DNA of 64,000 bases from Flagellimonas abyssi. Its GTDB lineage: Bacteria; Bacteroidota; Bacteroidia; Flavobacteriales; Flavobacteriaceae. Both the position numbers and the translations under genes were made by a program. Positions 5,724 to 11,261 of the stretch are shown one piece after another. Position 1 is the first letter of the stretch, and the number at the start of each line of letters is the position of its first letter. The notes below the pieces were generated by a model. The model did not search any database and was not told the DNA's origin. It saw nothing but the letters and a program-made list of their open reading frames with translations. The stretch covers positions 62,001 to 126,000 of the forward strand of contig NZ_JAHZSV010000003.1 in the NCBI RefSeq assembly GCF_019457905.1, read 5' to 3'.

Positions 5724-5796
5724 TAAAACTTTGGATTAAATACACTATTTGTCGATAAAATGTGCTTTAAATTAATCGTCTTTAATTACTGTACCT

Positions 5797-8088: not shown

Positions 8089-9987
8089 ATGAGTGATCCC
8101 ATTAAGCACGAATGCGGAATATCGTTGATCCGTTTGCTTAAACCCCTGGAGTACTACAAAGAAAAGTACGGTACGGCTTTTTACGGCGTAAACAAGATGT
8201 ACCTAATGATGGAGAAGCAGCACAACCGAGGACAAGATGGTGCCGGTTTTGCAAGTATAAAAATGGACATGCAGCCCGGTGAGCGCTACATGAGCCGTGT
8301 AAGGTCGGCAGAACAGCAACCCATTCAGGATATTTTCGCCCAGATCAACAACCGTATCAATACGGCATTGACCGAAAACCCGGAACGCGAGAACGATGTT
8401 GACTGGCAAAAAAAGAACATACCTTATATTGGCGAACTTTTAATGGGGCATGTTCGCTATGGCACCTTCGGAAAAAACAGTATTGAGAGCGTACATCCAT
8501 TTTTGAGACAGAACAACTGGATGCACCGTAACCTTATTGTTGCCGGTAACTTTAACATGACGAATGTTGATGAGCTCTTCAGCAACTTGGTGGAACTGGG
8601 ACAGCACCCCAAGGAAAAGGCCGACACCGTTACCGTAATGGAAAAAATCGGTCACTTTTTGGATGATGCCGTAGCCAAGCTTTACAAGCAGATCAAAAAA
8701 GAAGGATATACGAAAAGGGAAGCCTCCGCATTGATCGCCGAGCGCTTGAACGTGGCCAAAATTTTGAGAAAAGCTTCAAAAAATTGGGACGGTGGATACG
8801 CTATGAGTGGATTGATCGGACACGGAGATGCATTTGTGATGCGTGATCCTGCTGGTATTCGGCCCGCTTATTACTATCAAGATGATGAAGTAGTGGTCGT
8901 AGCGTCGGAGCGTCCGGTAATCCAGACCGTTTTCAATGTTAATTTTGATGATGTACACGAACTGGACCCCGGACATGCCGTAATCGTGAAGAAGAGCGGT
9001 TCCATGGCCTTAAAGAAAATCTTGGAGCCGACCGAACGCAAAGCTTGTTCTTTTGAGCGCATTTATTTCTCACGAGGCAGTGACAAGGAAATCTATCAGG
9101 AAAGAAAAAAACTGGGGAAACTTGTGTTCCCCGAAATATTGAAGTCCATTGACAACGATTTGGAGAACACCGTTTTCTCCTATATCCCCAACACAGCGGA
9201 GACATCGTTCTTTGGAATGGTGAAAGAGGCCCAGAATTACCTCAACAAGAAAAAAGAGGAACAAATTTTGGCATTGGGCTCCAAGATGACGGCCGAAGAG
9301 CTTCATAACATATTGAATATTCGTCCGCGTATTGAAAAAGTGGCCATAAAAGATGCCAAACTGCGAACTTTTATCACCCAAGACAGTAGTAGGGATGATT
9401 TGGTGACCCACGTTTATGATATTTCGTATGGCTCCGTAAAGCCAACGGACAATCTGGTGATCATTGATGATAGTATTGTTCGCGGAACTACACTAAAGCG
9501 AAGCATTCTAAAAATACTGGACAGGTTATCTCCCAAGAAAATAGTTGTAGTCTCCTCTGCTCCACAAATTCGATATCCGGACTGTTACGGGATCGATATG
9601 GCCCGATTGGAGGATTTTGTAGCGTTTAGGGCAGCGCTTGCGCTCCATGAAGAGCACGGCACTTCGCATAAAATAAAGGAGATTTATGAAAAGTGTCTCA
9701 CACAGACCAATCCTTCCAATAAAAATGCGGTGAACTATGTGCAGGAGTTTTATGCCCCGTTCAGCGCTAAACAGATTTCACGTAAAATTGGCGAAATCTT
9801 AAGTCCGGAAGGCATCAATGCAGAAGTTGAGATCATATATCAAACTATTGAAGGTCTCCACAGTGCCTGCCCCAAAAATCTAGGGGATTGGTATTTCACT
9901 GGAAACTATCCAACACCAGGCGGCAACAGGGTGGTAAACAAAGCATTCGTCAACTTTTTTGAGGGTAAAAAGGAAAGAGCATATTAG
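8089..9987 (+). CDS. Amidophosphoribosyltransferase-like protein (long PurF paralogue)
   Basis: A 632-residue class II glutamine amidotransferase joined to a phosphoribosyltransferase. After an 8-residue propeptide (MSDPIKHE) comes the Cys that would become the N-terminal nucleophile (CGISLIRLL), as in PurF of the Bacillus type. GHVRYGTFG, DPAGIRPAYYY and ASERPVIQTVF are glutaminase-domain landmarks; VIIDDSIVRGTTLKRS at about residue 457 is the PRPP loop. It is over 100 residues longer than ordinary PurF, with insertions between the two halves. It probably makes phosphoribosylamine, but a paralogous role beside the PfkB kinase is possible. No purine genes adjoin it other than purN two genes upstream. 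Confidence 0.85.
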   Translation: MSDPIKHECGISLIRLLKPLEYYKEKYGTAFYGVNKMYLMMEKQHNRGQDGAGFASIKMDMQPGERYMSRVRSAEQQPIQDIFAQINNRINTALTENPERENDVDWQKKNIPYIGELLMGHVRYGTFGKNSIESVHPFLRQNNWMHRNLIVAGNFNMTNVDELFSNLVELGQHPKEKADTVTVMEKIGHFLDDAVAKLYKQIKKEGYTKREASALIAERLNVAKILRKASKNWDGGYAMSGLIGHGDAFVMRDPAGIRPAYYYQDDEVVVVASERPVIQTVFNVNFDDVHELDPGHAVIVKKSGSMALKKILEPTERKACSFERIYFSRGSDKEIYQERKKLGKLVFPEILKSIDNDLENTVFSYIPNTAETSFFGMVKEAQNYLNKKKEEQILALGSKMTAEELHNILNIRPRIEKVAIKDAKLRTFITQDSSRDDLVTHVYDISYGSVKPTDNLVIIDDSIVRGTTLKRSILKILDRLSPKKIVVVSSAPQIRYPDCYGIDMARLEDFVAFRAALALHEEHGTSHKIKEIYEKCLTQTNPSNKNAVNYVQEFYAPFSAKQISRKIGEILSPEGINAEVEIIYQTIEGLHSACPKNLGDWYFTGNYPTPGGNRVVNKAFVNFFEGKKERAY

Positions 9988-10001: not shown

Positions 10002-10025
10002 AAAGAGCACATTACCGTGCACTTT
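10002..10025 (+). terminator. Weak terminator-like hairpin after the PurF-like gene
   Basis: AAAGAGCAC and GTGCACTTT can pair around a 6 nt loop with one internal mismatch; no T run follows. It may stabilise the 3' end of the mRNA. Confidence 0.35.
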
Positions 10026-10079
10026 ATCGATGAAACTAGCAGAATAGCGGGTTTTTATACGATCAGCTGTCCGCAATCC

Positions 10080-10087
10080 TACTTTAG
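10080..10087 (+). promoter_or_regulatory. -7 box of small-RNA copy 1
   Basis: TACTTTAG, one mismatch from TAnnTTTG, 6 nt upstream of the conserved CCATAGC start of the repeat. A T-rich stretch (TTTTTAT, 10052-10058) lies about 21 bp further upstream as a possible -33 element. Confidence 0.6.
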
Positions 10088-10093
10088 TATCTG

Positions 10094-10166
10094 CCATAGC
10101 ATAAGTAGGTTAAGTTCATGGTAAGATTTGGGGCAAAAAAGGTGGAAGCTATTCCACCTTTTTTAT
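10094..10166 (+). ncRNA. Predicted small RNA, copy 1 of a tandem triplet
   Basis: A predicted transcript of about 73 nt. The first 40 nt (10094-10133) start with CCATAGCATAAGTAGG and end with GTAAGATTTGGGG, identical to copy 2 and differing by one base from copy 3. CCAT at the 5' end can pair with ATGG at 10117-10120 to close a 20 nt loop. The 3' part is a Rho-independent terminator, GGTGGAA-GCTA-TTCCACC plus TTTTTT (10141-10164), unlike that of the other copies in sequence but like them in shape. A -7 box ends 6 nt upstream. No ORF spans it. I do not recognise a described RNA family; function unknown. Confidence 0.75.
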
Positions 10167-10301
10167 TTTCTGCACACCCGTAAACCTTTCGAAATTCCCT
10201 TAGTTTTCTTGACATTTATCAATAATCGGGTCTAGTTGAACACTTCAACCCATATAAAGGAGTTTCATCTAAAAGCTTGGGCAAGAAAACATCGCTTGGC
10301 T

Positions 10302-10309
10302 TACTTTTG
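10302..10309 (+). promoter_or_regulatory. -7 box of small-RNA copy 2
   Basis: TACTTTTG, an exact match to TAnnTTTG, 5 nt upstream of the conserved CCATAGC. A TTG at the start of the upstream TTGGGC lies about 22 bp further upstream as a plausible -33 element. Confidence 0.7.
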
Positions 10310-10314
10310 GAAGA

Positions 10315-10388
10315 CCATAGCATAAGTAGGTTAAGTTCATGGTAAGATTTGGGGAAAGAAGCCGGAGCATGCTCCGGCTTCTTTATGT
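10315..10388 (+). ncRNA. Predicted small RNA, copy 2 of a tandem triplet
   Basis: The conserved 40 nt (10315-10354) are identical to copy 1. They are followed by a different terminator, a perfect 24 bp palindrome with arms GAAGCCGGAGC and GCTCCGGCTTC (10358-10381) and a T-rich tail. The 5' CCAT / ATGG pairing is kept and can extend by one A-T pair. It starts 221 nt after copy 1, and the sequence between the copies is unrelated, so this is not a simple recent duplication of the whole unit: only the transcribed 5' part and the -7 box are conserved. Confidence 0.75.
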
Positions 10389-10471
10389 TTGACTACCAAG
10401 GTTTTATCCATTTCATCGACGAACTGCACGTTTTCTTTTTCTTCCAAAAAGCAAAATATTTTTTAAAACCC

Positions 10472-10502
10472 TTTGTTATTTTACACAATACCAGTATTTT
10501 AG
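10472..10502 (+). promoter_or_regulatory. Promoter of small-RNA copy 3
   Basis: TTTG (10472-10475), a 19 bp spacer and TATTTTAG (10495-10502), one mismatch from the Bacteroidota consensus, 5 nt upstream of the conserved CCATAGC. Confidence 0.7.
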
Positions 10503-10507
10503 TCTCG

Positions 10508-10580
10508 CCATAGCATAAGTAGGTTAAGTTTATGGTAAGATTTGGGACGAAAAGGGTGAGGGCTTCCTCACCCTTTTCTA
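10508..10580 (+). ncRNA. Predicted small RNA, copy 3 of a tandem triplet
   Basis: The conserved part (10508-10546) differs from copies 1 and 2 by a C to T change in the ATGG arm; that change lets the closing helix grow to CCATA/TATGG, so it strengthens rather than breaks the pairing. The terminator is again unrelated in sequence: GGGTGAGG-GCTT-CCTCACCC flanked by AAAA and TTTT (10550-10577). It starts 193 nt after copy 2. Three independent promoters and three different hairpins around one invariant 5' segment argue that the segment is the functional part. Confidence 0.75.
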
Positions 10581-10598: not shown

Positions 10599-10632
10599 AA
10601 AAAAAGCCGAGCACTTGATGCTCGGCTTTTTT
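10599..10632 (-). terminator. Terminator of sodA, usable from both strands
   Basis: A 14 bp stem (AAAAAAGCCGAGCA / TGCTCGGCTTTTTT) with a 5 nt loop, 20 nt beyond the sodA stop. The symmetrical A and T runs allow it to stop transcripts from either side, including leakage from the small-RNA locus. Confidence 0.92.
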
Positions 10633-10652: not shown

Positions 10653-11261
10653 TTATTTGCTAGCTGCATAGTTTTCAGAAACTTTGTCCCAATTGATCAC
10701 ATTAAAAAATGCTGAAATGTAATCTGGTCTCAAGTTCTGGTAGTTTAAATAGTACGCATGTTCCCATACATCCAATCCCAAAATTGGGTAACCACCACAA
10801 CCTACTCCAGGCATAATGGGATTATCTTGGTTTGGAGTTGAGCAAATTTCCAATTTTCCACCTTTGTGCACGCACAACCAAGCCCAGCCTGATCCAAATT
10901 GGGTAGCTGCTGCAGAAGAAAATTTTTCTTTGAAAGCATCAAAGGAACCAAAAGCGGCATCAATAGCGGAAGCCAATTCACCAGATGGTTTTCCACCACC
11001 GTTTGGCGACATTACTTCCCAAAAAAGGCTGTGGTTAAAAAATCCGCCCCCGTTGTTTCTAACAGCTGCGTTGGACATGTCCAAACCAGAAAGGATATCC
11101 ACAATTCCCTTTCCCTCCAAATCCGTTCCCTCAATGGCACCATTCAATTTAGTGGTGTAGCCATTGTGGTGCTTGGTATGGTGGATTTCCATGGTCCTAG
11201 CGTCTATATGGGGTTCCAATGCATCATATGCATAAGGTAACTTAGGTAATTCAAAAGCCAT
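10653..11261 (-). CDS. sodA: Superoxide dismutase, Fe/Mn type
   Basis: Converts superoxide to hydrogen peroxide and oxygen. At 202 residues it has normal length. Metal ligands are visible: the first His in [12 protein letters not shown], the second in [10 protein letters not shown], and Asp and His in [19 protein letters not shown] and the C-terminal [12 protein letters not shown] complete the family pattern. No signal peptide, so it is cytosolic. Choice between Fe and Mn cannot be made safely from sequence. A TAAAAATA stretch at 11299-11306 (TATTTTTA on the minus strand) is a possible -7 box. Confidence 0.96.

Follow-up and report, generated by a model that had tools for sequence, protein, structure and literature searches.

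What are three short, almost identical stretches of DNA doing in tandem between two convergent genes of Flagellimonas abyssi? Few regulatory RNAs of the Flavobacteriaceae have been studied, and a sequence-only reading of the region had proposed that the stretches are RNA genes. We analysed the window, that is the whole stretch of 64,000 nucleotides to which all coordinates below refer, together with related genomes. Judging from what is observed, namely the sequence and number of the copies, their promoter-like boxes and terminators, the constancy of the core and the synteny, the array probably makes regulatory RNA. We put at about 0.6 the probability that its units are three paralogous genes of a multicopy, probably base-pairing, stand-alone small RNA (sRNA) family.

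Anatomy of the array

All three units lie on the + strand and share a 39-nt core, CCATAGCATAAGTAGGTTAAGTT(C/T)ATGGTAAGATTTGGG, which begins at 10094, 10315 and 10508 and varies at a single site, with T in unit 3 only. Unit 1 (10094..10164) consists of a core at 10094-10132 and a terminator at 10135-10164, and unit 2 (10315..10386) of a core at 10315-10353 and a terminator at 10355-10384. Unit 3 (10508..10580; terminator 10549-10578) is of what we call the last-copy type, marked by the T at core position 24 and by GGGACG. The units are about 71-73 nt long. We scored them with two models: R1, which includes the terminator, and R2, a covariance model of the core alone (40 positions, no terminator). 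Units 1 to 3 reach 95.6, 81.7 and 90.8 bits with R1 and 58.8, 55.2 and 59.3 bits with R2. The window genome has three core matches, all in the array, and the next model match has an E value of 0.04.

Each core is preceded on the same strand by a -7 box: TACTTTAG at 10080..10087, 6 nt before the CCAT of unit 1, TACTTTTG at 10302..10309, 5 nt before that of unit 2, and TATTTTAG at 10495..10502, 5 nt before that of unit 3. The three terminators are perfect hairpins of differing sequence with arms of 13-15 nt, each followed by a T-run. The sequence-only reading had described three units sharing 39-40 nt with one C/T change, and its coordinates proved exact when the window sequence was read again; the -7 box that it placed 5-6 nt upstream of each unit and the Rho-independent hairpin of unrelated sequence in each were confirmed as well. 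Indeed, what marks a stand-alone sRNA gene is found here, namely an own promoter-like box, an own intrinsic terminator, no conserved ORF and conservation across genera.

Folding of the window copies predicts two hairpins per unit, with MFE z-scores of -2.7, -4.7 and -4.4 for units 1 to 3, and the terminators hold most of the paired bases. The predicted 5' hairpin is plausible as a structure; two divergent members are predicted to fold otherwise, and covariation in the 5' helix did not exceed that of shuffles (0 pairs among 16 cores; 1 pair among 30 and 1 pair among 31 distinct cores). The suggestion that the C/T change strengthens the closing helix is thus a prediction that gained nothing from the comparison, double changes being no commoner than in shuffles.

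Distribution across the Flavobacteriaceae

With R2 at E<=0.001 the core was found in 312 of 397 Flavobacteriaceae genomes, with 278 of 330 good assemblies and 193 of 237 genera positive, a recurrence far beyond chance. A first DNA search had given matches in 193 of 199 family genomes at the loose limit of E<=1. The separately promoted and terminated multicopy genes that had been proposed from the window thus appear, by sequence, to belong to a family kept across the Flavobacteriaceae, and conservation in one strain only, which would have spoken against them, is not what the genera reveal. Among 395 genomes of the class, all R2 matches below E 0.001 were from Flavobacteriaceae; outside this family the best R2 match had an E value of 0.009, under strict filters that lose weak matches. 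The two best R1 matches in other families of the order (G228 and G214) were rejected, the core being absent on reading.

We looked for purF in thirty genomes that have no convincing copy, 13 of them Flavobacteriaceae and 17 from other families. It was located in 28, and an intact unit was not seen in the 450 nt after purF in those 28 loci. One of them (L172) seems to carry a decayed copy after purF. A diverged unit lies within the purF-sodA gap of L077. A contig of a metagenome-assembled genome labelled Lentimicrobium (L292) carries two units and shows purF and/or sodA; it is possibly a misbinned Flavobacteriaceae contig. Carriage by mobile elements was looked for in viral contigs with two patterns, one omitting the linker TAAGATTT and the other covering both linker types, and in plasmids and phages, and there was no match.

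A fixed address between purF and sodA

Upstream of the array and on its strand lies an ORF (8089..9987) which, from its protein, we take to be purF. Downstream, on the - strand and convergent, is an ORF at 10653..11261 that is presumably a sodA-like superoxide dismutase gene, again by recognition of its protein. The gap between unit 3 and sodA contains a perfect hairpin with T/A runs, an inverted repeat at 10600..10632, which is probably the sodA terminator. By eye, an interrupted hairpin, AAAGAGCAC..GTGCACTTT, is visible at 10002-10025, 3' of purF, where it overlaps the first half-repeat of unit 1; it may be the purF terminator. No same-strand ORF of at least 60 aa lies between the array and the convergent sodA in the window, and the array is therefore not an obvious leader.

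We asked how widely this address is shared. A pattern scan of genome contigs gave at least 118 named loci; since the pattern omits the window-type linker TAAGATTT, the 118 loci lean to other clades. R2 found 225 units at E<=0.001 in the 118 named loci listed. Both neighbours are visible in 84 of these, and every one of the 180 units there sits in the purF-sodA gap with the orientation of purF; the remaining 34 show purF only (16), sodA only (9) or neither (9). Counting the best 150 of 157 matches in 54 other loci, both neighbours are visible in 49, and 141 of 141 units lie between them, again on the purF strand. Multicopy arrays between the same two genes, which the sequence-only reading had suggested looking for, are thus present across the family. 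The synteny itself it had missed, together with the direct repeats of 20-bp period and the distinct last copy described below. Both the synteny and the constancy of the array are of an unusual degree.

Departures from this arrangement were also seen. Four dispersed copies (L217, L219, L222 and L223) have the core, a terminator and a promoter-like box, and in some relatives (L159, L161, L163 and L171) purF and sodA are adjacent without an array. On one contig (G007:C24; L226 and L227) one copy adjoins purF and another, 18 kb away and oppositely oriented, adjoins sodA; an inversion of about 18 kb appears to have divided this array.

Constant and variable parts of the unit

Profiles were first drawn from 369 units chosen by the motif AGTAGGTTAA or AGTAGGTAAA plus TTTGGG. 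In these contexts the stem letters, the loop flanks and the linker are 93-99% conserved, except where clades differ (for instance AGC/AAC, C/T at 24 and TAAG/TAG). The TAnnTTT(G) columns of the -7 box are conserved too, and their distance is fixed. In 368 of the 369 the terminator has a T-run and a stem that is uninterrupted when G-U is allowed; the stems comprise 118 different strings, so that function rather than sequence is kept in the terminator. The linker differs in length by 1 nt between clades (TAAGATTT versus TAGATTT), which breaks any frame from the ATG of the core.

Because the units had been picked by the loop and linker motif itself, we repeated the count on 375 model-found units, comprising all 225 in the 118 listed named loci and the best 150 of 157 in the 54 other loci. 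The linker TTTGGG occurs in 375 of 375 of these. The loop is AGTAGGTTAA in 345 and AGTAGGTTAG in 20, and takes other forms in 10, of which two (L306 and L334) have CACGGTTAAG. An invariant loop, the impression given by the motif-picked units, was accordingly given up; linker and loop are both very constant, and the loop is not invariant. Many of the non-standard loops are in inner copies of Flavobacterium arrays. The loop that is one A shorter, AGTAGGTTAG, was noted in L241, L261, L295, L302, L313, L314, L323, L059 and L070, usually beside a standard unit, and these units are possibly a sub-type with its own pairing range. The recount leaves the odds of the sRNA reading unchanged, with loop invariance slightly weaker and synteny stronger.

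Direct repeats upstream and a distinct last copy

The DNA between the units had been called unconserved. This does not hold for the elements upstream of the promoters, which are conserved across genomes. Alignment of 330 upstream regions on the -7 box revealed two direct repeats, about TTTnATCnAAA, at -57 and -37. For statistics we used one unit per listed named locus, 107 of which were usable. Identity at lag 20 is 0.548 versus 0.317 (SD 0.010) in shuffles, and the next highest lag, 25, reaches 0.425. Both half-sites are present at 8/10 or better and at the fixed place in 60 of the 107 loci, at least one in 86 and neither in 21; at six shifted places both were found in at most 1 and at least one in at most 10 of the 107. 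The half-site consensus was drawn partly from the units on which these counts were made, and the lag-20 statistic is independent of it.

In the window, unit 2 has the complete element, TTCAACCCA / TTCATCTAAAA, at 10243..10274 on the + strand, 20 bp from start to start and with 19.9 bits on the motif matrix. Unit 1 has the upstream half-site, TTTATCGATGAAA, on the + strand at 10023..10035, position -57 of the aligned element; its second half-site, at about 10043, is degenerate, and the unit stays below 10 bits. Unit 3 has a different element, ..TTTGTTATTT..CACAATACCAG, at 10453..10494 (+ strand), named from the consensus of the 27 last-type contexts, which agree in this promoter region (..CACAATACCAGTAATTTAG). 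Of the 54 arrays compared, 27 have the unit-3 type, and within the part of each locus in view it is the last copy in all 27; its last position is the same on model-found units. In another 22 of the 54 the motif picks out one or two copies, none of them of the unit-3 type.

Published LytTR-type sites, as given in the excerpts compared, consist of two imperfect direct repeats of 8-13 bp, about 11-13 bp apart and just upstream of the -35 region, and the AlgR half-site is CCGTTCGTC. The direct-repeat geometry upstream of the sRNA units is compatible with such sites, here with a 20-bp period and a fixed place, and from this we infer that a LytTR-type regulator may act on the repeats. A further match to the direct-repeat matrix, TTTTATCGACAAATAGTGTATTTAATCCAAAG with 18.4 bits, lies on the - strand of the window at 5726-5760, in the promoter region of what we take to be acpP-fabF, with its repeats nearer the -7 box than those of the sRNA units. 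The acpP promoter region in 18 relatives gave best scores of 5.0-16.1, and like scores also occur in coding DNA; acpP may be regarded as a lead to a co-regulated promoter.

Relation to known RNAs

Several near-identical regulatory RNA genes also make up the Qrr and LhrC sets, which belong to other phyla and have other sequences than the array. The array RNA is unnamed as far as we searched, and its kind, the multicopy sRNA, is already known. No family of Rfam 15 matched the array region at the gathering score, which agrees with the earlier failure to recognise a named RNA there; 67 matches were sub-threshold and, from their coordinates as read, mostly cover the terminator hairpins. A search for the core letters in the full texts of a literature library gave no paper, and none of the results listed by word searches of the literature was recognisably on this RNA. 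Our comparison drew on excerpts of PMC9723704, PMC11697453, PMC6193735, PMC4064291 and PMC2864571; in that of PMC11697453, Qrr and LhrC are mentioned as multicopy sRNA sets. Rfp18 is a conserved sRNA of Flavobacterium psychrophilum whose deletion lowers two metalloprotease mRNAs (PMC9723704, in the part seen). Compared by its description there, it has a third stem-loop and pairs through it, whereas two hairpins are predicted in the array units.

The closest likeness is to FopS (BTncRNA_FopS, RF04319), a multicopy sRNA family of the Bacteroidaceae according to the excerpt of PMC11697453. FopS and the array agree in size, in multiple copies, in a Bacteroidota-type promoter just upstream and in a constant 5' part followed by a varying hairpin terminator. 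The FopS criterion of several paralogous copies, each with its own promoter and terminator, describes the array too. The FopS sequences and the array core also have CATA..AT.AG..AGGTTAA and a GATT(T)GG linker in common. FopS is further marked by its partner RbpB, an RRM-1 protein, and by its repression of SusC-like mRNAs close to the start codon. In contrast, FopS genes are mostly scattered over the genome and the array RNA is a syntenic tandem. The FopS 5' tail GTGTTTTTCAT is absent from the array units, and the constant 5' seed GTGTTTTTCATAGTATTAGATTTAAGGTTAAC was not found in them, as they begin at CCAT. For GibS, a Bacteroides sRNA related to FopS (PMC11697453, excerpt), the Rfam model (RF04182, 142 positions, cut-off 115 bits) scored 21.9 bits at a place outside the units and on the opposite strand. 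Two sub-threshold FopS matches in other genomes (L120 in G216 and L121 in G522) are, by eye, antisense to apparent gene starts, ATGAAAAAC..., and so resemble targets of FopS more than genes for it; both lie outside the high-scoring FopS genomes.

Searches for targets

In the start regions of 337 genes (a 0.40 Mb sample plus the window), words complementary to the core were not enriched as a whole. Single words exceeded expectation (CCTACTT, 4 versus 0.7; CCTACT, 6 versus 1.9; TTACCAT, 4 versus 1.4), which we attribute to chance, some 70 words having been compared. In the genome the loop complement is about as frequent as expected by chance, with 4 non-array sites against a Markov expectation of about 5. 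The impression that the genome avoids it, gained from a count of 45 for the reversed pattern, was dropped, as it disappears against the Markov expectation. In the 5' regions of SusC genes (20 of 28 full-scoring genes), exact core complements were sparse, with few 9-10-mers and nothing convincing.

Some individual sites caught our attention. At L136 (G000:C38:390305, - strand), downstream of what is presumably an hflX-like gene, CTTAACCTACTTAGACCATGG is complementary to most of the sRNA's initial 21 nt and stands before a terminator. Partial core-like stretches that have no usual promoter and terminator were seen in L228 (2459-2491) and L081 (1188-1258). Read on the opposite strand, each is extensively complementary to the sRNA, a little ahead of an ATG in L228 and with the terminator loop TAACCTAC in L081, and these stretches could be either decayed copies or target or sponge sites. 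We do not claim L228, L081 or L136 as targets or sponges, since they could just as well be decayed dispersed copies.

Weighing the explanations

Could the array act in cis, as a bank of terminators or an insulator between convergent purF and sodA with no role in trans? It is rich in terminators and lies between the two genes wherever both are visible, in 84 of the listed named loci and 49 of the others. A terminator, however, needs no constant 39-nt core, no promoter and no activator-like upstream element, copies are dispersed elsewhere, and purF and sodA can adjoin without an array; we consider a purely cis-acting element very unlikely. A family of small peptide genes starting at ATGGTA is hardly credible, for although the core contains an ATG, the linker indel and the unrelated terminator sequences lead to differing frames and peptides. 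Another possibility is that the units are true orthologues of FopS and GibS from the Bacteroidales and share both their seed and their SusC-type targets. This would account for the shared size, the multiple copies and the layout of promoter, about 40 nt plus linker and terminator. It would also fit the score of the window core against one FopS form, which was reached in 36 of 4000 dinucleotide shuffles and in 19 of 20000 random 41-mers of the window. When nine pairs of forms are compared, however, the shuffle counts run up to 2714 of 4000, and the other 41-mer controls gave 64 and 256 of 20000. The Rfam FopS model scores the array at 20.6 bits against a cut-off of 56, and the array is absent from the genome matches of that model at E<=10 (150 of 560 candidates scored). 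Conversely, R2 missed FopS in 16 loci where it is present. A partner of the RbpB type was also sought: no RRM_1 match (PF00076) was found in the window genome at E<=0.001, while the control, Bacteroides ihuae, was positive. Orthology with FopS thus seems rather improbable, and we treat the array RNA as analogous to FopS in outline.

The failed target searches make a protein-binding role a serious rival. The stem-loop and linker would then be a platform, and copy number would set how much of an RNA-binding protein or polymerase is sequestered. That stem, loop and linker vary so little across many genera fits such a decoy, the negative search for target enrichment suits a protein ligand, and multiple copies suit titration. 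Each short RNA, however, has one such hairpin and no motif repeated within the unit, and the missing RRM_1 match leaves the window genome with no detected counterpart of the Bacteroides RNA-binding protein. On balance we hold the decoy to be unlikely, although less so than the other rivals.

How the probable sRNA genes might work

In a base-pairing sRNA family, for which FopS of Bacteroides sets a precedent, each gene would be read from its own Bacteroidota-type promoter, with the start at or next to CCAUAG, and each transcript would end at the intrinsic terminator of its gene. Pairing in trans with mRNAs, and thereby their tuning, would involve the constant loop (mostly AGUAGGUUAA), the linker GAUUUGGGG or both. 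Having several copies could increase the dose and bring different inputs together in one output: most promoters would be activated through the LytTR-like direct repeats, whereas in some arrays the last copy would depend on another element. A bolder and doubtful extension is a family-wide post-transcriptional hub, in which many mRNAs, or one RNA-binding protein, would read the constant loop and linker with no RRM chaperone, and several promoters of a LytTR-type regulon plus a differently wired last copy would feed the same RNA output.

An RNA in about four fifths of the sampled genomes, mainly at one fixed address and with a very constant core, would, if the sRNA reading is true, be a regulator relevant to most of the Flavobacteriaceae. 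It offers a natural case for how multicopy sRNAs are kept and for sRNA use by bacteria said to lack classical sRNA chaperones, and it is a clean candidate for a new Rfam entry. A possible further small RNA was met at L132 (G000:C31:17360), in a gap near what we take to be a guaA-like gene, where a TAcATTTTGG box is followed by CCATAG, a hairpin TTGAG-TAGGTTAA-CTCAA and a terminator.
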